Source: a virus
IMG/VR virus record: IMGVR_UViG_3300018080_000643
Span: 1 to 21,951 of that record
DNA: 21,951 nucleotides
Direction: 5' to 3' (one strand)
Of this stretch, positions 797 through 21,257 are shown one piece after another (positions within the stretch are counted from its first letter, which is position 1; each line of letters opens with the position of its first letter). The notes under the pieces were generated by a model. That model was given only the letters and a program-made list of their open reading frames with translations. It did not search any database and had not been told where the DNA came from. The position numbers and the translations under genes are program-made.

Positions 797-824
797 TTGA
801 CACAAGTACAAAATTTGTTAAAAT
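797..824 (+). promoter_or_regulatory. Promoter P4, nearest to the tRNA-like RNAs
   Basis: TTGACA (797-802) is a perfect consensus -35. A 16-base spacer leads to TAAAAT (819-824), preceded by TTTGT as in P1 and P2. Transcription should begin around 831-834, only about a dozen bases before the first tRNA-like element at 845. That spacing suits a short leader removed during 5' processing. Confidence 0.65.
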
Positions 825-844
825 GCTGAGAACGAAACACAATT

Positions 845-982
845 GAATGGGTAGTTTAATCGCACTAATTATTACTTCTGCCAATACGTTCCACGTTTTG
901 GCAGAATGTTAAGTGGTGCAAAACGCTCAGCAATGTGATAAACATTGCTGCCAGAATGTAGGTGAAAATCCTACTCCATTCG
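845..982 (+). ncRNA. tRNA-like RNA 1 with enlarged interior
   Basis: The ends have exact tRNA geometry. GAATGGG (845-851) pairs with TCCATTC (975-981), one pair being G-T. It is followed by TA, D-stem-like GTTT and AAT at the positions expected for tRNA bases 8-16. The T-arm GTAGG/TGAAAAT/CCTAC (958-974) joins the acceptor strand directly, and G982 sits at the discriminator position. CCA is not encoded (CCT follows). The interior is about 100 nt, far more than a tRNA. It contains a 9-bp hairpin (876-884 with 898-906) and an 8-bp hairpin (928-935 with 943-950, loop TGATAAA). GGTGCAAAAC (915-924) could complete a D-loop and D-stem, which would place a 54-nt insertion in the D-loop. No proper anticodon arm is evident. 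It could be an intron-bearing tRNA, a decayed tRNA, or a tRNA-mimicking RNA. Confidence 0.6.
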
Positions 983-1011
983 CCTGCATTTTTGGTGTTT
1001 TCACCAGAAAG

Positions 1012-1202
1012 GAACAGATAGTTTAATAACGATTTTGATCTTGCCTCTATATTATCACTGCCGCTTTCGTATCTTCGGGTATGCTTTCTGGTAAGTTAAT
1101 TTTAGAGGACACCCCAACAGGTGTATTAAGGTCGTAGAATGCACGGGAATTAGTTTAATTACTATAAACCGTGAGATGTAGGTGCAAGTCCTACTCTGTT
1201 CG
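1012..1202 (+). ncRNA. tRNA-like RNA 2 with enlarged interior
   Basis: It has the same architecture as the element at 845. GAACAGA (1012-1018) pairs perfectly with TCTGTTC (1195-1201), followed by TAGTTTAAT as in element 1. The T-arm is GTAGG/TGCAAGT/CCTAC (1178-1194), with G1202 as discriminator and CTT rather than CCA after it. The T-loop TGCAAGT is close to a normal T-loop except for G at position 55. The interior is about 150 nt. CACGG (1142-1146) and CCGTG (1169-1173) make a 5-bp stem four bases before the T-arm, where an anticodon stem should lie, but it encloses 22 nt instead of 7. A TTCG-capped hairpin sits near 1068-1083. A small hairpin at 993-1006 (TGGTG/CACCA) separates it from element 1. 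This may be a paralogue of element 1 or a tRNA with insertions in its D- and anticodon loops. Confidence 0.6.
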
Positions 1203-2239
1203 CTTTTGATCTTTGACAATTTGGTACTGAGTTCCACACTTATGCTGTAAAGTGTAAGTGACCTCAAGAGTCCTGTGGAATCCGATGGTTTTAACCACGG
1301 GTACAAAACCCCAATCCGCACAGAAAAGGGGTGGGGGCTATCAAGCGGAAGTTTCCAAGGAAGTTTGCTTTGGCAAACATTTTAAAGAGCTTTGCGGCTT
1401 GAAGTCACGGGATGATGAAACAGACATTGCCCTGGCAAAGAGTCTGAGAATTCAAACCGGATACTCACAGGCGGGCTTCGATGCGAGGTTTGGACTAGAG
1501 ATGGGTATGTTTGACAGCTTACCTAAGCATTTATTTGTAAGTCTCTTTCCGGCTGTAATGGAATTTAACATTTGATGTCAATTAAATGAATTTCATACAG
1601 CAAAAACCTAGAGGGTGGGCCTGGCACATAAACCTTGCGTGCAGAAATGTGACAAGGAACAAAGTCAGATCACATCAGCATTTTCAGTCAGATACGAAGC
1701 CAAGTGATCCTTGGTGCTGATAAACTGGAAATTTACTGACACCCTAGCGCGTTGCGGGATAGACCACAAACAGCCAGTTGTTTGTGAGCAAATCCCCCGA
1801 GAATATCGGGAACAGTCGTCGGGCTGTATAGCAACGTTGAGCCTAATGTCAACCTAATGACATTCAGAAACGACGTGGAATCTAACCACGAAAAAAAATG
1901 GGAGGTTGAGGAGTAAAGCCATTACAAGGGCTCATGTGACACTCTGAGATATTAATAGCTAAACTGTGGTAACAGCAGCATGTTATGAAATAATTATCAG
2001 AAACTCACAGAAAGTTCAAGTAATAGGTAAATTTACCCACAACTATCACGCCGTAGGTTATACCAATTTTGTGTGCGGTGGGGTTAAAAGCCTCAAGGTA
2101 AGCACTACCTGCGGAGACTGGTTAAAAGGTGATGGAACTCAATGGAGGATTTAGTTATTTTAACGAATGCTGAATTCTAGAACGCGCTTGCCGAGAATGC
2201 CCCTTATTGATGGAAACTTCAATAAGGGGTTTTTCTTTT
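1203..2239 (+). ncRNA. Large ornate structured RNA candidate (GOLLD/ROOL-like by analogy)
   Basis: This kilobase has no convincing protein gene but many local helices. GCGTTGC (1749-1755) with GCAACGT (1831-1837) closes a junction. The junction holds GGGAT/ATCCC (1756-1760, 1792-1796) over CACAAAC/GTTTGTG (1765-1771, 1780-1786), then CCGA/TCGG (1797-1800, 1806-1809) and ACAGTC/GGCTGT (1812-1817, 1822-1827). Nearby are AATGTCA/TGACATT (1845-1851, 1858-1864), CGTGG/CCACG (1874-1878, 1886-1890), ATCAGCA/TGCTGAT (1674-1680, 1715-1721) enclosing CCAAG/CTTGG (1700-1704, 1710-1714), and ACACTT/AAGTGT (1236-1241, 1250-1255). A strong terminator ends it. Very large structured RNAs beside tRNAs are a known feature of phage GOLLD and ROOL RNAs. 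The size and setting fit, but I cannot match the sequence to either family. The 5' boundary is uncertain and could include the tRNA-like elements. Confidence 0.5.
2200..2239 (+). terminator. Strong rho-independent terminator of the RNA region
   Basis: CCCCTTATTGA (2200-2210) pairs perfectly over 11 bp with TCAATAAGGGG (2219-2229), with loop TGGAAACT. It is followed by TTTTTCTTTT (2230-2239). On the minus strand no U-run follows the stem, so it stops only rightward transcription. It shields the converging glycosyltransferase gene, whose stop codon is at 2243-2245. Confidence 0.9.
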
Positions 2240-2242
2240 GCG

Positions 2243-3016
2243 CTACTTCAACTGTTCATCTATTAATTCTTGATGAACGTATTTTTTTGAAGTATGAAAA
2301 TGAGGTATATCGTAGCTTGGATACAAATAATCAGGAATAGGAAAATCACAATCAGGCGGACTATTTCGTTTGATTGTGATGTTATGAAATGCTGATTTCT
2401 CACCAATATGTTGAATTACAATGCGATTTGGAACATATACCTTTATTTTTTCATCTTTGCAAAATTGATGCATTCTTACATCATGCCCTGGTTCATAATT
2501 GTCATTACGAAGAAAATGTCCCAATTTGATTGCTACAGAAGGAGTGTAATACATTCCCTGCGTGCCAAAAAATCTATCAATTGGATATTCAACAAAACCA
2601 TATTTGCCTGTTTCCATTTTTTTGTGCGGACTGTAGATGGATAGAATGAATGCATCAGAAATTTTTTCTATTTCGTTTATTATTTTTTCCGTATGTGTAA
2701 ACCAATCGGGATTTAAAATTATATCATCTTCAAGAATAAAAATGCCTTTTTTATTTTTATTAGCGTTTCTTAAGATTTTTGAGAAGTTCCAAGAAGCTTG
2801 TCTTTGTTTCATCCATGTTTTAATTTCACTAAAAGATTTTACAGTATGTAATCTTTTTAATTTAATTCTACCTTGTTGTAGATATTTTGTAACATAATTT
2901 CCATTTTCTACACCCAAGCATATATTGATATTTCCAGTCCAATCAGAAGACAACAAAGATGCTATGGTGATATAAAAATAATCATCTCTACAAGTTAAAA
3001 TATTAAGATCATACAT
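2243..3016 (-). CDS. GT-A type glycosyltransferase, GnT-IV (GT54)-like
   Basis: The 257-residue protein probably transfers a sugar from a nucleotide-sugar donor. The sequence has a GT-A layout: an N-terminal NILTCRDDYFYITIASLL strand-helix, and ILEDDIILNPDWF (residues 94-106), whose acidic EDD cluster at 96-98 is placed as the metal/nucleotide-binding DXD motif. Further along are FFGTQGMYYTP (149-159), GHDVRMHQFC (177-186) and IQHIGEKSAF (201-210). The ILEDD, GTQG and QHIG blocks resemble the conserved region of N-acetylglucosaminyltransferase IV-like proteins. There is no signal peptide or membrane segment, so it should be cytosolic. It could act on phage DNA bases, virion protein or host polysaccharide; the sequence does not say which. 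Its ATG (3016) overlaps the end of the upstream nucleotidyltransferase gene by 8 bases. It is the last gene of the minus-strand operon. No minus-strand terminator is visible beyond it. Confidence 0.75.
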   Translation of the reverse strand: MYDLNILTCRDDYFYITIASLLSSDWTGNINICLGVENGNYVTKYLQQGRIKLKRLHTVKSFSEIKTWMKQRQASWNFSKILRNANKNKKGIFILEDDIILNPDWFTHTEKIINEIEKISDAFILSIYSPHKKMETGKYGFVEYPIDRFFGTQGMYYTPSVAIKLGHFLRNDNYEPGHDVRMHQFCKDEKIKVYVPNRIVIQHIGEKSAFHNITIKRNSPPDCDFPIPDYLYPSYDIPHFHTSKKYVHQELIDEQLK

Positions 3017-4616
3017 TTTTAAGTTGACCGCTTTTAAGAATATCTAAAAATCTTTTGTGTGCCAATTCTGCTTGTCTTTGTGAAATACCAGGGGTTCCGT
3101 GTCTTATGCCGCTAAACGGGTCTATTACGAACAGGTCCGCAAACATAGGATCATCAGCAGAAACTTTAATTGGTCCGTGGCTAACGTGTTTTAAAAAAGC
3201 TTCTACAGAACCTTCGGGAAATCTACTTTTATTCATTTGAGCCCATGTTGAAAGTAGTGATTTTTGTCCCATTTCATTTCCATTAAGGTAACCACTAGAC
3301 AAACCACTTCTCATAAAATCAGAAGACATTCGGTTAAGATTGTTGGGATCAATTTCGGGGTGAAAATGAAGGAATTTAATTAAAAAAGCAATTCGCTTGG
3401 CTTCATCATTTGTCCAATGGGCATTCGTAAGCATATCATAAACACTATTGGCATCATTGTCTTTTAAAATCCAAGCAACCGCCAAGTGTTTCTCTTTTTG
3501 ATCGCTCACATCATCGGGACCGTCTTCTCTAAATTTCATGCCTGGGAAAACTGTAGGTAGTAATCCCAATTTCTTATAAAGCCCTACATAAACTTTGGGA
3601 TCAATTTTTTCCTTTTTAAGCCCCTTTAGAAATTCATCACGAATTCTTTTTCTTCTATCTCTTCGCCTTCCTGTTTTGGGATCATCGAAGGGCTGTAGGG
3701 ATTGCAGTCCTTTCATCTCAGCGATGGCTTCTATAACGTCTTCCGGTATATCTGTATCTTCAAAGAGAGATGCAAATCTAGCATATCGAAGCGCTCTTAA
3801 CTCATCTTCTTGCAATCGATCTTTAGGATTACCAACAAATCTTACCTTTTTAGACTTCAAATGTCGGACTCCACCATAAATATCAATTAATTTATTATTA
3901 GGACCATTTTCATTTGTTAGAGGGATATACATCGCATTAACTGTAAAGTCGCGTCTTGCGGCATCTTCCTCTAAATTAGGTGTAAAACTCATAGCAGTAG
4001 TTCTGCCGTCGCTTGCTCCTTTGGAATCTTTTCTAAATGTGGCAATTTCAAAGGTTTCACCATTTACTTTGGCCCCCATGACAAATTCTTGACCATTAAT
4101 ATCTGTTCCCTGGACATAGAATTTTTTTGATCCACTAGATTTTTTAGGAAGATTTGCATATTTTTGGTTTGGTTCGCCTTCTTCCCCATTTGTAGCAGTT
4201 TGGGGCGCAATCTCAGTGAAATCGGCATGTAATAAAATGAGGCGGATTTCATCCATTGTGGCATCAGTTGCCAAATCGTAGTCATTGGGGGTTTGTCCCA
4301 ATAAATGATCTCTTACAGCCCCACCAACCAAATAAAGAGTTTTTTTCTTTAATTTGTTTTTTGTAAGACCACTAGTATTTTGCCCGGCATTTTTAGGAGC
4401 TTTCACATCAATCATACTAGGTCCAAATTCAACTTCATTACTATTATTGAAGGCTTTAACAAGTTCACCTAGATTTTTTCGTCCATATTTAGATCCAACG
4501 AAGAATGGTTCAATTCCTTCATCTTTTCCCAAAATAGTGGTGTTTTTAGCGACAACATTTTCGCCACTAGATTCTTTGCCTTCTTTGAGCAAAATATATT
4601 CTTTAAATGTTTTCAT
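3009..4616 (-). CDS. cca: CCA-adding / poly(A) polymerase-family nucleotidyltransferase
   Basis: This class II tRNA nucleotidyltransferase-type enzyme adds nucleotides to RNA 3' ends. Counting from the chosen start, residues 95-103 are YLVGGAVRD, followed by NDYDLAT with the catalytic D-x-D at 112-114. ATFRKDS, then SDGRTTAM, leads to RRDFTVNAM (221-229) and DRLQEDELRALRYARFA (266-282), the RNA-binding head signature. The 535 residues exceed the roughly 400 usual in bacteria because of a 95-residue N-terminal extension and an insertion around residues 136-187. I chose the ATG at 4616 over a TTG at 4634. It has AGG seven bases upstream and overlaps the upstream stop as ATGA. It gives an N-terminus MKTFKEYILLKEG that matches other proteins in this window. 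The two tRNA-like RNAs on the facing strand lack encoded CCA, so they are natural candidate substrates. Activity (CCA versus poly(A)) is not decidable here. Confidence 0.88.
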   Translation of the reverse strand: MKTFKEYILLKEGKESSGENVVAKNTTILGKDEGIEPFFVGSKYGRKNLGELVKAFNNSNEVEFGPSMIDVKAPKNAGQNTSGLTKNKLKKKTLYLVGGAVRDHLLGQTPNDYDLATDATMDEIRLILLHADFTEIAPQTATNGEEGEPNQKYANLPKKSSGSKKFYVQGTDINGQEFVMGAKVNGETFEIATFRKDSKGASDGRTTAMSFTPNLEEDAARRDFTVNAMYIPLTNENGPNNKLIDIYGGVRHLKSKKVRFVGNPKDRLQEDELRALRYARFASLFEDTDIPEDVIEAIAEMKGLQSLQPFDDPKTGRRRDRRKRIRDEFLKGLKKEKIDPKVYVGLYKKLGLLPTVFPGMKFREDGPDDVSDQKEKHLAVAWILKDNDANSVYDMLTNAHWTNDEAKRIAFLIKFLHFHPEIDPNNLNRMSSDFMRSGLSSGYLNGNEMGQKSLLSTWAQMNKSRFPEGSVEAFLKHVSHGPIKVSADDPMFADLFVIDPFSGIRHGTPGISQRQAELAHKRFLDILKSGQLKNV

Positions 4617-7948: not shown

Positions 7949-8030
7949 GGGGCATATGTGAACTGCCCCGCCGTGCATACCCGCCGGGCCTCTGCCGCAA
8001 GGTACGCTATCTCTCGGCGGGTTTTTCTTT
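7949..8030 (+). terminator. Double-hairpin terminator
   Basis: GGGGCA (7949-7954) pairs with TGCCCC (7964-7969) just after the stop codon. CCCGCCG (7980-7986) then pairs with CGGCGGG (8015-8021), followed by TTTTTCTTT (8022-8030). The second stem has an unusually long 28-nt loop containing a possible inner CCT/AGG stem. Together they end the 5105-7946 operon. GC content is much higher than in the surrounding genes. From 8031 to 8166 I see only AT-rich sequence with no convincing promoter, ending in a TAAGGA ribosome binding site for the gene at 8167. Confidence 0.8.
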
Positions 8031-8166
8031 GTAGTCTTGCTATCTTCATTCTATATTTTTCACGATTATTACTACCTTTTACCTTCTTGGCAGATTTGAA
8101 TGTAAGAGGAATTGAAACATTTTTAAACAAAAAAAACTAAATATCAGTAATTAATTAAGGATAAAT

Positions 8167-8793
8167 ATGCCTTCAATCAGGAATAATATGGGATTACCAG
8201 CAGGACTTGGCATTCCGTCTACTTTGCGAGATCAATTCAAAAGAATTACCAAGCAACAAGGCCCAGTTCGCCCAGTTCCCGCTAACCAATATGGTCCAAG
8301 TGTTAAACCAATCGGCAAAGGCAGCTTGGTTCACTTTAATTATCAGTTCTGGCAACATGATCCGTATCCCCTTGTTATCATAACTGATATCTTTCCTATG
8401 TATATCCGAGGCGTAAATCTACACTACTTAACTTTTCCTTATATTAAAAATTTATTACAAGCTAACTGTGATAATAATGGCTTTTCTTATTATAACATAC
8501 GAGGAGATCAATATATAGTAAATGCCTTTAGAACATATAAACGCGCAGGCATAAAGCGACTTAAAACCCTAGATTGCGCTTTTATACTGCACGTTCTCGC
8601 CTCTGTTCGTGCTTTAGATCCTAATGAAGTTGACAATATACGAAAGGTAATTCAAGAACAAATTAGGAGGCGGGCTCAACCAAAGGCAGAAGAATTATCA
8701 GGTAAATATATGGAAATGATGCGAGGACAACAACAGCAAGGTTTCATAGATATAAATAATCCACCACCAGTGGCACCACCAGAACAAATTTAA
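8167..8793 (+). CDS. Conserved T4-like phage structural protein, function uncertain
   Basis: The 208-residue protein is Pro/Gln-rich at both ends. Its core (residues 50-150) reads LVHFNYQFWQHDPYPLVIITDIFPMYIRGVNLHYLTFPYI, then a basic stretch YNIRGDQYIVNAFRTYKRAGIKRL. The pattern 'F-Y-P---D--PLV---D---- I-G-NLHYL' recurs in a small virion-associated protein of large T4-like phages. I know it by appearance and cannot give a gp number with confidence. It has a clear TAAGGA site six bases before ATG and sits directly ahead of the tape measure gene. A tail-completion or neck role is therefore plausible but unproven. Confidence 0.6.
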   Translation: MPSIRNNMGLPAGLGIPSTLRDQFKRITKQQGPVRPVPANQYGPSVKPIGKGSLVHFNYQFWQHDPYPLVIITDIFPMYIRGVNLHYLTFPYIKNLLQANCDNNGFSYYNIRGDQYIVNAFRTYKRAGIKRLKTLDCAFILHVLASVRALDPNEVDNIRKVIQEQIRRRAQPKAEELSGKYMEMMRGQQQQGFIDINNPPPVAPPEQI

Positions 8794-8801
8794 GGTAATT
8801 A

Positions 8802-11800
8802 ATGGCAGATTTCACAGTTGACGATCTAATACGCGGAATGACAGCAGAAATCTCACAAGGAGAAACTGTTAAAAAATCTGATGTCGCTGCTGAATTACAA
8901 CAAATTTTAGATAAATTTGTTGATAATTTTAGTGAGAAATTGGATAGTGCCGCAAATCTCATTAAATCCGTAGGTGATGCTTATAAAACGGGCTTTAATA
9001 AAAAAGAAATTAAAAATCAAGCTCCAAAACTTAAAGATGTAGGAAACATGTCTTTACAAGGGATGACTAAAGGTTTCCGATCTGCTCTAAGTGGTGGTTT
9101 GGGAAGTGTTTCTTCGCCTCTTGATGTCATGAGTGGCTTAATGAAGACAGTTAGAAACCTACTCAATGTAAACATTAAACAAAATGATCGTTTCGTATTT
9201 GGAAGTGCTCAACACATTATCATTGAGGATATAGATGGTAAAGTAATGAAACAATTGAGGGGTGGAGAATTTGGAGCTGGTGGTGCAAAGGATACATTCC
9301 TGAGTGGTATTAAAAATATTGGAGAAGTTGGTGGAACGGCAATTGCTTTAAAATCAATATTCGAAGGAGCATTAGTAGGAGAATACGAATTCATTAGGGG
9401 CATGCGAGAAATTGCCTATCAAACTGACGCACTTGATTCTTCCATGTTTAATCTTCAAGGGCGATTAAGAGATATAGGGAAGCAAGTTCAATATACAGGG
9501 GTTAATAGGCAGAAATTCTTAACAGCTTACATGAAGAATCTTAAGAAAGGAATCAAAAGTCAACAACAAAGTTTAAAAGTAACACAAATTGGATTGTTTA
9601 CAGGCAAACAATTAGGGATGGATGCAGAAGCAACCGCCTCAAGATTTCATGATTGGCACATGCAACTTAGATTAAATACAGGAGAGTTGCAAGTCCTTAG
9701 TGGCGCAACGAGTGAAATAGCCAAGACTACGGGGGTTACGGGAGAGAATTTAGAACAAGCTGTACAGGCTTCCGATAAATTCATGAAAAATCTTCGAAAT
9801 TCAGCCAGTTTATCTGCAACTGGTGCTAAGAATATGATTGGAATGACGGCAGCAGCACAAAAATATGGTGTTGAAGAACAGGTTTCTTCAATACAACAAG
9901 CATTAAGCAGTTTAAGTGATTTTAGACGAACTGATGCTGGGTTTAGAGCGTTCTTAATGCGAGCCGGTGAACTTGCAGGGGTTGCACACGAAGTTTTCAC
10001 TACGGAAGTAATGCACGATCCTAAACTTGGAACGCGGTTTGTTGGTGGTTTAAAAAAACAAATGGATCTCATTTTAAAAATGGCTCCTGACGCAAGGGGG
10101 TATTTGTCGGGCAATATATTAGAAGCTGATTTGCAAGACATTCCATTTGAGATCAGACAATATTTAAATGAAATGACACAACAATTGACAGGAGGAGCAT
10201 TTAAAGGTTTGGGGGACATGCAATTAGCAATTAAATCCACCGAAGAAGGTTTCATGAGCTTTGAAGAAAGAATGAAAAAGCTAAAAACAGAACGAGATCA
10301 AAGTTTCAGAACAACTCAAGAGTATATGCAATATCAGCAAAAGATAGCCAGCAGTACGTTGCAAAAGACGGGTCAATTGTTAAACGAATATAACACAGCA
10401 ATTACAAAGGCTGATAAATTAGATCTTACAGGTAAGCCCTTAGAAGAATTATTTGCAAAAAGTGGCTCAAGATTTAAAACAGAAATGGAACGTAGCGCCG
10501 GTGCATTTGCCGAATTGGGATTGGCAGGTACATCACATGAAGAAAAAATAAATGGGTTATATAAAACTCGCTTTAATCTTGTTGCTAAAATGGGAAATGA
10601 ATTTGATGTTGATATAAAATCCACTTCTAAAATGATGCAAAAGGCATTGCAAGGCCCGAAAGACAAAAGGGATTCTTTAATTCGTGAGGCTATGACCACT
10701 TTAAATGAAGATTTGCAAAAAATAGAAACAGCGAGACAAAGAAAGTTAGACCCTGTTAAGTCCCTTCAATATCGCATTGCGGAAGCTAATGAGATAGTTG
10801 CCAAAAATACAGGCCAAATTATGAATTACTTATTCAGAACGTTGGGTGCAGGAGGGATAGGAGCAATTGCAATTGGCGCTATGTCACCAGCAGTCGTAGG
10901 TGCAATTCAAAATGGATTTGGCATGATTGGAACTGGTTTTCATGGTGCTGCTGGAGGGGGTAATTTAGCCAAAGGCGGCTTAACAATGCTTGGTGCTCCA
11001 TTTAATTTGTCAGCAGGCGGGGCATTGGTTGCTATTGCAGGCATTACGGCAGCAATAGGTGGAATAGTGTCCGCATTCAAAGCAGGTAAGCATGCAACCG
11101 ATATATTTAATACTTCCTTAGACGAATTAACAATAAATCAGAAATGGGCTGCCGAAGGTGCTGGTTTTTTAACCGGCGCGTTAAATTTTCTTACATTAGG
11201 GCTATTTAAAGGTGCTCTTGGTCCTACTGGGTGGCTGACTCAAAAACTTGCTTTGTTATTTGACGCTTTTCCTCCTCTTGCTTGGGCAATGCAAACAGTA
11301 ATGATACCGGCAAAGATACTTTGGGGAGTTCTTAAAGGCATAGGAAGATTCATTAAGAATGTATTTATTGGATTGTGGAATGGTATAAAAAAAATATTTA
11401 AACCATTTATTGAAATTGGAGAATTAGTCGGTGAGATTTTCCGTGATTTTCAAGAAGCATTTGGTGGCTTTGGAATAAAAGCAAAAGATACAATTGGTAT
11501 TGTTGAAACCATAGCTTCAGTATTAGGAGGAATAGGAAAAGGTCTCGGTTGGGTAATTGAACAAGTTGGTTGGTTGATTGGCGGACTTATTCGTATAGGT
11601 CTAATTCCACTTAAATTTATTATTGGTGCAATTTGCGGTTTAGTCAAAGGCATTTTGAAAGTAATAATGCCAATTGTAAAATCTTTCACAAAATTCTTCA
11701 AAGGTCTTGGTGAAATAATAAAAGGCATTTTCACACTTGACGGCAAAATGTTTATAAAAGGATTGCGAATGGCACTTTATGGTGCCGGGGAGTTTATCTG

Positions 11801-14800: not shown

Positions 14801-16034
14801 ATTTATACAAATATTAAAAGGGATATTAACTTTTAATTGGGACACAATAAAAGAAGGCTTTGGCAAAATTTGGAAGGGCATAGGCCAGATGTTGAAAGGT
14901 GTTCTTGTGGCAATTTTTGGACCAATAACAGATCTTGGCCAATTAGCAAGTTCCAGTTTAAAAGCTGTATTTATTAAATTTCCCCTTTGGGCGGGAAAAA
15001 CAATGCTGAAAGCATTAAAATCTGTATTTGTTGATTTCCCAGCTTGGATAGGCGAAACAATAATGGGCGGATTAAATAGTGTATTCGCCCACTTTTTAGA
15101 TGATATGAAAACAGTATTTGTTGATTTTCCATATTGGTTATTTACTTCAATCACAAAAGGACTCAATGATCTGGGTACTTGGCTTTGGGATCATACTATT
15201 GGTGCTCTTATTAATGCTTTGCCTGCATGGGTTAAAAAATTAATGTATCATCGTGAAGGGGAACAATCAACAGTTTCAAAGACTATTGCTGCTGTGCCTG
15301 GTGGAACGGCAATAGGAGGTGTGAACGACGTACTAAAAGGAGATAAAATTAAAGGAGCAAGTAAAATTGCACTTGGTGGACTTGAATTGGGAGCTATGGG
15401 AACGCCGATTGCTCCTGCGGTGGCTGCCTGGAAAATGGCTCAGGGCGTCAAAGGTTTATTTGGATATAAAGAAGGAACCCGAAAAATTATAAAACCGGGA
15501 CTTGGAATTTTACATGAAGGGGAGGCTGTAATTCCTTCTGATTCTCTAAAGGGAATACGAGCAGAAGGTGACGGAGCGTTTGACATCTCTAAATTTTATG
15601 AAACATTAACAACTGCCGGTGGTAGATTTGCAAATAATACTTTGATGGGCATGACAACCCCAGTTGCATCGATGGGTGCAGCCACAGTTGCATCTACAGC
15701 ATTACCAGCAATTCATGATGAAATTAAGAAAGAACAAGCGGGTGAAGAACCCACCACTACAAAAGTGGCAGGCGAAGAATTAAGTGAAATGGTTGCCCAT
15801 TTGAAGAAAAATGTAGATCTTTTAACAGCAATGAATGCTCACTTAATAGAGATGGTTAGCATTATGGGTGAAGGGTCTGAAATTATGCCTTATGAAAATA
15901 ATGGTATAGATGAAGTGCAATCTGGTGCTTCAAAGCCAATTGCACCATCAAAATACCCAACAATAACTGTTGGATTAGCAGCACAAAGTGCAGGCAGACA
16001 AAGCAGGATGGGCCAATCTGCTAGAGCTTATTAA
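8802..16034 (+). CDS. Tail tape measure protein
   Basis: At 2410 residues this is by far the longest gene here. It should set tail length, fill the tail tube and be ejected ahead of the DNA. The first 650 residues are helical and charged. Residues about 680-790 are Gly/Ala-rich and hydrophobic (GAGGIGAIAIGAMSP, GGALVAIAGITAAIGGIVSAF). Residues 860-1060 and 1650-2130 are long runs of hydrophobic amphipathic helices. Two copies of a tape-measure-type motif occur, GGKVPGQG...VHGGELIIP near residue 1130 and KPGLGILHEGEAVIP near 2230. A unit of the form KGLFTLDFxxIKEGF appears four times (see the repeat entry). A coiled-coil segment (about 2325-2355) precedes the C-terminus. I see no peptidase or lysozyme motif. 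AAGGT six bases upstream supports the ATG. At about 0.15 nm per residue the tail would be around 360 nm long. Confidence 0.92.
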   Translation: MADFTVDDLIRGMTAEISQGETVKKSDVAAELQQILDKFVDNFSEKLDSAANLIKSVGDAYKTGFNKKEIKNQAPKLKDVGNMSLQGMTKGFRSALSGGLGSVSSPLDVMSGLMKTVRNLLNVNIKQNDRFVFGSAQHIIIEDIDGKVMKQLRGGEFGAGGAKDTFLSGIKNIGEVGGTAIALKSIFEGALVGEYEFIRGMREIAYQTDALDSSMFNLQGRLRDIGKQVQYTGVNRQKFLTAYMKNLKKGIKSQQQSLKVTQIGLFTGKQLGMDAEATASRFHDWHMQLRLNTGELQVLSGATSEIAKTTGVTGENLEQAVQASDKFMKNLRNSASLSATGAKNMIGMTAAAQKYGVEEQVSSIQQALSSLSDFRRTDAGFRAFLMRAGELAGVAHEVFTTEVMHDPKLGTRFVGGLKKQMDLILKMAPDARGYLSGNILEADLQDIPFEIRQYLNEMTQQLTGGAFKGLGDMQLAIKSTEEGFMSFEERMKKLKTERDQSFRTTQEYMQYQQKIASSTLQKTGQLLNEYNTAITKADKLDLTGKPLEELFAKSGSRFKTEMERSAGAFAELGLAGTSHEEKINGLYKTRFNLVAKMGNEFDVDIKSTSKMMQKALQGPKDKRDSLIREAMTTLNEDLQKIETARQRKLDPVKSLQYRIAEANEIVAKNTGQIMNYLFRTLGAGGIGAIAIGAMSPAVVGAIQNGFGMIGTGFHGAAGGGNLAKGGLTMLGAPFNLSAGGALVAIAGITAAIGGIVSAFKAGKHATDIFNTSLDELTINQKWAAEGAGFLTGALNFLTLGLFKGALGPTGWLTQKLALLFDAFPPLAWAMQTVMIPAKILWGVLKGIGRFIKNVFIGLWNGIKKIFKPFIEIGELVGEIFRDFQEAFGGFGIKAKDTIGIVETIASVLGGIGKGLGWVIEQVGWLIGGLIRIGLIPLKFIIGAICGLVKGILKVIMPIVKSFTKFFKGLGEIIKGIFTLDGKMFIKGLRMALYGAGEFIWEVFVGAITRLPAIFIDLVGGAIKALPKFIKNIGKFMWNTITSALIGLGDWLWSVITKPWQATGEKISGGYTGTNDSEWSSLEGAGKTAKGQIELLLGDEWSLRGQTLGRLEGLGKAAAGATEFLTGWMFEKGGKVPGQGAVPAIVHGGELIIPADYTKKGTAGVLQFLKDRYGNALPHFAKGGVVGVAPDVAAMQFAPMPQPTRDYKTATEGEMPYSPALMNYVSAKQIPMFNQSMTTVTMKGKKHLAELGNVAADVFKNKDISRMTDYARVGMAAAKDHAYRFLQYTRQIEFGNVGKMITGLTKKTAEWGKLTTGTFTKIMKAFTAISKAASGANLIKYGKNIHAVSKRIPILKKAVDLTEQGTKIIARSKFGKTIKDVSQSLGITKASMFPFSAAKMPPTTKAGRFAAAAKTKVIGAAGSAKDWFKGLKVGEVVKQLTPPYINDAIKAIAKPKTAADGGKIAKTITKALTTGKNAAKGISPPVLTKLVTEAASKVKLAKGVATLGKVSRFGGVASKLSGAAGVVGQGAGKILNIPGLSQILGGISGFLERDAATGVFKGQGIAGGIESTILGALTGGADTGSMFSGMLGIKKGGAGDEAMGVLGATGTGALGGAALGTMIAPVIGTSIGAVVGGIGGAVAELYKIMTDAGSPLKKFLDQWAPAVNIIIQPLKHLVVGIQELFGGAWKIIKGLFTLDFKSVGDGIVQMLLSIPKAIFNTVVSIVSAIVKQIFTLPKVFATVLFKLPQLVYNAIAEIFTSLGGMADKMKGPFGEILRAILTPFKIIGQIASAAGGVFGGLFDMVMGLFSFDFNRIKEGFIAAIITLPNMFGNVLGTIGKSLIGVMANVPLYILGMFKKTFIDLPKHLIGSITNGLKRLSDGILAPIFEPIYKAWLDIKGVLMEIIEPFESIFTMLKGAFYKIQEALLNIFQPFFKPLMDAKSSISKIAQLLTPLVSVLKTVLMSLIILVGAFVKIAVTVLKPIIMGLGKIIAGVANNIAGFIQILKGILTFNWDTIKEGFGKIWKGIGQMLKGVLVAIFGPITDLGQLASSSLKAVFIKFPLWAGKTMLKALKSVFVDFPAWIGETIMGGLNSVFAHFLDDMKTVFVDFPYWLFTSITKGLNDLGTWLWDHTIGALINALPAWVKKLMYHREGEQSTVSKTIAAVPGGTAIGGVNDVLKGDKIKGASKIALGGLELGAMGTPIAPAVAAWKMAQGVKGLFGYKEGTRKIIKPGLGILHEGEAVIPSDSLKGIRAEGDGAFDISKFYETLTTAGGRFANNTLMGMTTPVASMGAATVASTALPAIHDEIKKEQAGEEPTTTKVAGEELSEMVAHLKKNVDLLTAMNAHLIEMVSIMGEGSEIMPYENNGIDEVQSGASKPIAPSKYPTITVGLAAQSAGRQSRMGQSARAY
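11697..14895 (+). repeat. Diverged internal repeats in the tape measure gene
   Basis: Four copies of a roughly 28-residue unit fall near 11700-11785 (LGEIIKGIFTLDGKMFIKGL), 13850-13930 (AWKIIKGLFTLDFKSVGDGI), 14196-14280 (LFDMVMGLFSFDFNRIKEGF) and 14800-14890 (FIQILKGILTFNWDTIKEGF). Further on, VFVDFPAWIGE and VFVDFPYWLFT form a second repeat type near 15020-15140. The DNA has diverged, so these are protein-level repeats spread through the hydrophobic half. Confidence 0.6.
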
Positions 16035-20825: not shown

Positions 20826-21257
20826 ATGGCAGAAGAAAAATTTAAAGGCGCACCATATCCAATCAACACACACCCTCTTGGATATCTTCACACTCAAACT
20901 GGTTTACACACAATTAAATCAGATTTACTAATATTATTATTGACCAATATTGGCGAGCGAGTTATGTTGCCAGAATTTGGCACGCCTCTTAAGAAATTGT
21001 TTTTTAATCCAAACGATCAAGAAGTTATTGAAGAGGCTCGATCTATGATTGCGGGTGCAATTCAAGCATGGGAACCAAGAGTTGTAATAGAACAAATAGA
21101 TATAAATATAGGATCAAGCGACAGTTGGCAAGACAGTATAAATGAATCCGATGCAATGCAAGATTTAGACCACATTCTAGGTATTAGAATTACATTGTTT
21201 GATCCCGAAGATATACAGTCGGTTCAAGAGTTAGTATTGGAAGTACCATTGGCGTAA
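20826..21257 (+). CDS. 25: Baseplate wedge protein, gp25/GPW family
   Basis: This 143-residue protein matches the gp25/gpW family of baseplate wedge subunits shared by T4-like phages, phage P2 (gpW) and type VI secretion (TssE). The diagnostic stretch is HTIKSDLLILLLTNIGERVMLPEFGTPLKKLFFNPND (residues 28-64), containing the conserved E-PEFG--L--LLF core. A C-terminal beta part (RVVIEQIDI, ILGIRITLF, LVLEVPLA) follows. Family members form the inner wedge and nucleate the sheath by strand exchange with the sheath protein. Length is normal (T4 gp25 has 132 residues). It lies directly upstream of a gp6-like gene, as expected for the wedge module. Confidence 0.93.
   Translation: MAEEKFKGAPYPINTHPLGYLHTQTGLHTIKSDLLILLLTNIGERVMLPEFGTPLKKLFFNPNDQEVIEEARSMIAGAIQAWEPRVVIEQIDINIGSSDSWQDSINESDAMQDLDHILGIRITLFDPEDIQSVQELVLEVPLA

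Follow-up and report, generated by a model that had tools for sequence, protein, structure and literature searches.

Paralogous tRNA-derived elements with rebuilt D and anticodon arms lie upstream of a giant structured RNA in a huge phage

The window analysed here, i.e. the whole 21,951-bp stretch of IMG/VR record IMGVR_UViG_3300018080_000643, derives from a huge phage and carries two real, paralogous tRNA-derived RNAs, E1 and E2, each keeping a cloverleaf in which the D-loop holds a structured insertion and the anticodon loop has been enlarged or replaced. Sequence and covariation establish their cloverleaf helices, tRNA-type ends and replaced loops, their conservation in a second phage, G008, and the presence of a giant structured RNA downstream. 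E1 and E2 look like tRNA parts reused for a non-decoding purpose. We tentatively propose, with slightly less than even confidence, that they could be non-decoding tRNA-like modules, the acceptor/T-arm halves of which would be kept for tRNA end-processing and would define the 5' end of the giant RNA.

Results

A conserved non-coding locus in two phages

The window contains phage structural genes, encoding a baseplate wedge protein (20826-21257), a 2410-aa ORF product that is read as a tape measure, and a protein of 720 aa. The 720-aa protein has 80% identity to its counterpart in G008, a 527-kb phage contig (IMGVR_UViG_3300005613_000001), and 36% to that of the 595-kb phage LR756511.1. No convincing ORFs were found across the 1.9 kb between an ORF end at 348 and a gene start at 2243, and positions 345-2239 are kept in G008 with 72-80% identity. 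A protein-coding reading was discarded, because single-base indels separate both phages and there is no long ORF. The features of the locus are the following.

797-824, plus strand: strong, near-consensus sigma70-type promoter TTGACA-16-TAAAAT (11/12), with TG before the -10
832-844, plus strand: 5' leader of E1, 13 nt; 11/11 aligned bases identical in G008, with one 2-nt indel
845-982, plus strand: tRNA-like element E1
1012-1202, plus strand: tRNA-like element E2
1207-1224, plus strand: boxA-like element TGATCTTTGACAATTTGG, identical in G008
1227-2198, plus strand: giant structured non-coding RNA of about 970 nt, 86% identical in G008 (3' half, 91%)
2199-2238, plus strand: intrinsic terminator, conserved in G008
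3009-4616, minus strand: class II nucleotidyltransferase of the CCA-adding or poly(A) polymerase family (Pfam PolyA_pol, 4e-27), conserved in G008

Transcription is predicted to start at about 831, and the promoter region is 80% identical in G008. The order promoter, leader, E1, E2, boxA-like element, giant RNA and terminator constitutes a predicted conserved non-coding operon of 1.4 kb. As leader, boxA-like element and terminator are all conserved, one shared transcript is predicted. We take TGATCTTTGACAATTTGG to resemble the boxA antitermination signal of rRNA operons; only two other near copies were found in the G008 sequence searched, both inside tRNA arrays. The nucleotidyltransferase gene lies 1.8 kb from E1 and E2, and its product scores under the cut-offs of the NCBIfam CCA and PcnB models.

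Two separate observations concern the upstream DNA. In G008 (L107, near 15480-15600, minus strand), the promoter region preceding E1 is doubled, with two tandem TTGACA..TTAAAATGCTG copies. In the window, positions 345-796 are further conserved non-coding DNA, which holds two promoter-like sites (494-521 and 557-585), a boxA-like sequence, GTTCTTTGAAAACT, near 410, and, at 448-481, a strong hairpin.

Architecture of E1 and E2

Both elements sit where the original prediction had placed them and have exact tRNA-type ends. Their parts, all on the plus strand, are as follows.

845-851/975-981: E1 acceptor stem, GAATGGG/TCCATTC, followed by discriminator G982; TA at 852-853
854-857/921-924: E1 D-stem
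861-919: E1 D-loop insertion, which folds into a GCAC..GTGC stem enclosing a further hairpin; retained, with changes, in G008
926-954: E1 anticodon arm, lengthened to a long hairpin with pentaloop GATAA (CCAAA in G008)
958-962/970-974: E1 T-stem, with T-loop TGAAAAT
1012-1018/1195-1201: E2 acceptor stem, GAACAGA/TCTGTTC, followed by discriminator G1202; TA at 1019-1020
1021-1024/1137-1140: E2 D-stem
1028-1134: E2 D-loop insertion with several hairpins, a covarying closing stem and a fully conserved GACACCCCAACAGGTGTAT hairpin
1142-1146/1169-1173: E2 anticodon stem
1147-1168: E2 anticodon loop with TTAGTTTAA, 22 nt long here and 25 nt in G008
1178-1182/1190-1194: E2 T-stem, with T-loop TGCAAGT

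E1 and E2 thus resemble tRNA (RF00005) in their acceptor, D, anticodon and T stems, their TA at positions 8-9 and their single discriminator, and an A15-U48 Levitt pair is possible. The 7-bp acceptor stem and the 5-bp T-stem with its 7-nt loop are correctly spaced, and D-stem and anticodon stem are present, for E2 on the evidence of compensatory changes. The two elements had been described as lacking a tRNA-sized middle, which does not hold, since both stems were found in each of them. The proposal of tRNAs with D-loop insertions was right for both; these measure about 55 nt in E1 and 107 nt in E2, and their own stems are kept or covary in G008. An insertion in the anticodon loop had been assigned to the second element only: it is indeed found in E2, but E1 is altered there as well, by its hairpin. 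The pair differences reported between the two acceptor stems were correct (4-69, T-A to C-G; 5-68, G-C to A-T; 7-66, G-T to A-T).

When both strands of the window were scanned for a 7-bp acceptor stem, TA or TG, and a 5-bp T-stem with a 7-nt loop, E1, E2 and one weaker chance match were retrieved. The reversed-sequence control, over 2.78 Mb strand-bases of related loci, gave 10 long matches, none of them with a TAGTT D-arm. Folding z-scores against shuffled sequences are -6.9 for E1, -3.7 for E2 and -5.4 for E1 of G008.

Covariation between the two phages

E1 precedes E2 in G008 too, and compensatory changes affect the acceptor, T-, D- and anticodon helices taken together. The E1 acceptor GAATGGG/TCCATTC becomes GAACAGG/CCTGTTC in G008, the T-stems GTAGG/CCTAC become GCAGG/CCTGC, the E2 D-stem GTTT/GAAT becomes GTTC/GAAC and the E2 anticodon stem CACGG/CCGTG becomes CTTGG/CCAGG. 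The E1 D-stem (GTTT/AAAC) is invariant, hence uninformative for covariation; free-energy folding of E1 from G008 by itself nevertheless yields a complete cloverleaf that includes it. When the pairs of a plain cloverleaf are counted over the four sequences (E1 and E2, two phages), 97.6% of the cells are paired and 7 of the 21 pairs are changed on both sides, with a covariation score of 0.405, compared to 34-50% of paired cells and at most one doubly changed pair in slid controls. The original prediction, that the acceptor stems are selected as RNA, had named in advance the loss of pairing in homologues as the result that would speak against it; pairing is maintained, with changes, in G008. The covariation thus appears strong helix by helix, yet few independent changes stand behind these four sequences, as the unit was found in two phages only.

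The spacer between E1 and E2 shrinks from 29 nt in the window to 3 nt in G008, and the insert tips differ in length between the two, while the element ends are exact in both. In both phages, G73 of E1 is followed by CC (GCC).

Departures from ordinary tRNA

E1 and E2 differ from tRNA by the structured D-loop insertions and by an anticodon loop that is enlarged or replaced by a hairpin; they also lack U55 and a conserved D-loop GG, and escape ARAGORN and Rfam. Neither element has the 7-nt anticodon loop carrying U33, nor an anticodon shared by the two phages: E1 has an extended hairpin, and E2 a loop of 22-25 nt without U33. Nor was a D-loop GG found together with T-loop U55-C56, since GG is absent from G008, for which reason an early reading of a conserved G18-G19 was dropped. 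The T-loops (TGAAAAT, TGAGAAT, TGCAAGT and TGCAAGC) have G at position 55; among the 58 ARAGORN tRNAs of G008, TTC dominates and TGC occurs in only 2.

Neither E1 nor E2 was called by ARAGORN, including its intron options, or by Rfam at curated cut-offs. In the ARAGORN check that had been suggested, very loose settings returned 193 nonsense matches. With the tRNA covariance model, only E2 leaves a trace, below threshold (13.4 bits, E 0.097). Ordinary tRNA and tmRNA were accordingly rejected as identities, ARAGORN being negative with intron options too.

The giant RNA

The fold of the giant RNA reaches -312.6 kcal/mol, compared to -258 +/- 9 for shuffled sequences (z = -6.2). The consensus structure of 1203-2240 comprises 315 pairs, of which 17 are changed on both sides and none is broken, while 12 column shuffles give at most 11. 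The giant RNA has no match among Rfam families, the GOLLD and ROOL covariance models give none up to E 5 in the window or in G008, and the group I core (RF00028), sought as a sign of a group I intron in the tRNA-like elements, gives none in the window or at the G008 locus. A known RNA family was therefore rejected, for E1 and E2 as for the giant RNA, on the basis of negative Rfam searches.

Search for relatives and other unusual phage tRNAs

No DNA relatives were found among named phages. Among 2.9 million viral contigs (IMG/VR), G008 was the sole other carrier of exact E2 and giant-RNA fragments, and one giant-RNA fragment had no match in the genome contigs queried with it. A covariance-model search (R1) of the kind proposed earlier was run over 47 related records and recovered only the two G008 copies strongly. 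Its match in LR756511.1 turned out to be a tRNA whose D-loop is interrupted by another kind of insertion; homology of the E1 and E2 inserts to that element is unsupported, its motif being absent from G008.

A pattern scan for further tRNA-like genes with D insertions (37 contigs) yielded, besides G008 and among the candidates inspected, mostly paired neighbouring ordinary tRNAs. A possible exception is L158 (minus strand, IMGVR_UViG_3300010413_000140), a tRNA-like sequence of about 98 nt missed by ARAGORN, with GGCCCAG..CTGGGCC, GTAGG-TGCAAGT-CCTAC and a hairpin in the D-loop region.

Otherwise ordinary tRNA genes of huge phages are interrupted by a recurring module of about 42-65 nt, ACTTGGA-[hairpin]-TCCCCNA-N6..20-TACAAAC. 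It was seen in LR756511.1 (W01; 287.2-291.5 kb, minus strand), in L170 and L171, in L193 (minus strand, 7154 and 7548 from the 5' end) and in L198 (8894 and 10475). It lies either inside the D-loop, as in the tRNA at LR756511.1 291306-291442 (50.6 bits; insertion of 55 nt), or in the stretch that separates D-arm from anticodon arm, and at one site appears permuted around a tRNA. This module looks like a compact family of tRNA introns or insertions. The phage tRNA array of L193 also holds two compact group I introns (7988-8175 and 8980-9178, minus strand; 67.0 and 65.1 bits). In G008, the tRNA arrays at 155000-169000 (L110, 12266-12426) include predicted suppressor tRNAs CTA (called Pyl) and TTA (called Stop), suggesting possible stop-codon recoding.

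Discussion

Decoding by E1 and E2 is unlikely, because their anticodon loops have been altered, and differently in the two phages (GATAA vs CCAAA in E1; 22-25 nt without U33 in E2). They would also be dispensable for codon reading, since G008 has 68 other tRNA-model matches. The giant RNA and the promoter-boxA-terminator layout, which the original prediction had missed, change the most likely role of the two elements.

In the mechanism that we favour, RNase P and 3' tRNA maturation, including the addition of CCA, would act on the acceptor/T-arm stack and excise E1 and E2 from the precursor, which would leave the giant RNA with a defined 5' end. The boxA-like element could guard RNA polymerase against premature stops along so long an untranslated transcript, and the inserted arms might have a structural role, either for the freed modules or for a complex joined by them. 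The RNase P and CCA part of the tRNA-mimic idea put forward initially seems to fit. Processing is favoured by the exact tRNA-type ends in both phages, by the shortening of the spacer that leaves these ends undisturbed, as in tandem tRNA arrays, by GCC at the E1 3' end, by the location of the two nearest boxA-like copies of the searched G008 sequence within tRNA arrays, and by the layout as one shared transcript. The neighbouring gene of the CCA-adding/poly(A) polymerase family favours it weakly, because this gene also occurs in related contigs in which no element of the E1/E2 type was detected. Two points count against it: the usual elbow contacts, an aid to RNase P, are lacking, since the T-loops have no U55 and the GG pair of the D-loop is not kept, and, for processing as sole role, large conserved insertions would be superfluous.

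Those insertions, with their invariant loops, speak for the main rival, which we consider rather unlikely: E1 and E2 could remain attached to the giant RNA as a tRNA-like 5' domain, aiding its folding or assembly or recruiting a tRNA-binding partner. The predicted common transcript would suit this arrangement, as would the occurrence of GOLLD and ROOL near phage tRNA islands and the tRNAs that GOLLD linkers can hold (PMC12286853). The variable spacer (29 vs 3 nt), the variable insert tips and the exactly tRNA-like ends argue against it. A selected tRNA-like shape, together with the large tRNA set of G008, might also be expected of decoys for host tRNA-directed factors, such as anticodon nucleases, tRNA-sensing defences or aminoacyl-tRNA synthetases. 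We find this improbable: the giant RNA of the same operon would be superfluous for a decoy, and the anticodon loops are replaced and unlike between the phages, which disfavours in particular the anticodon-nuclease decoy suggested at the outset.

That E1 and E2 are functional tRNAs, from which D-loop and anticodon-loop introns are spliced, is more doubtful still. Other huge phages do have D-loop insertions in otherwise canonical tRNAs, like the 55-nt one of LR756511.1, but the motif common to such insertions is absent from E1 and E2, no standard 7-nt anticodon loop with U33 would remain, and the "anticodons" differ between the phages. The failure of tRNA programs to call the elements could point to decaying pseudogenes; compensatory changes across helices and conserved operon signals make this scarcely credible.

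The favoured reading, end-processing of non-decoding modules, can be compared with known systems. In rRNA operons punctuated by tRNAs and in MALAT1/mascRNA, an adjoining tRNA or tRNA-like element sets the end of a long RNA via RNase P and 3' processing. In the phage unit, unlike in these systems, the long RNA is preceded by two modules, their D and anticodon arms are rebuilt and their processing is predicted. The 3-nt E1-E2 spacing and the boxA-like copies in tRNA arrays, both in G008, recall tandem tRNA arrays of phages. Like tmRNA, the unit joins tRNA-like ends to other RNA, but ARAGORN finds no tmRNA, E1 and E2 have a D-stem, and the stretch between the tRNA halves showed no recognisable reading frame for a tag. 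It resembles GOLLD and ROOL as a giant structured phage RNA with associated tRNA genes and a conserved 3' part; it differs from them by the lack of an Rfam match and by the modified tRNA-like modules, in place of ordinary tRNAs, at its 5' end. GOLLD and ROOL are further characterised by a homo-oligomeric nanocage. The phage tRNA-associated theta ribozymes, which are HDV-like with cleavage sites at tRNA 3' ends (PMC10879173), are another phage means of making tRNA ends beside other RNA elements, but no ribozyme family was matched by Rfam at the E1/E2 locus.

With somewhat less confidence than in the processing role, we suggest that this unit may represent a new class of operon for giant phage RNAs: a pair of non-decoding tRNA mimics, their D and anticodon arms rebuilt, would constitute or define the 5' end of an unnamed ornate RNA of about 1 kb, and transcription would resemble that of an rRNA operon, with its strong promoter, boxA-like element and terminator. 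Standard tRNA programs miss such selected tRNA-like genes in huge phages. A huge phage reuses tRNA bodies, with strongly selected helices and apparently without decoding, beside an unnamed giant RNA. Should the processing model be true, it would provide a parallel, in a bacterial virus, to the tRNA-like punctuation of long RNAs and a handle on the function of the giant ornate RNAs of phages.
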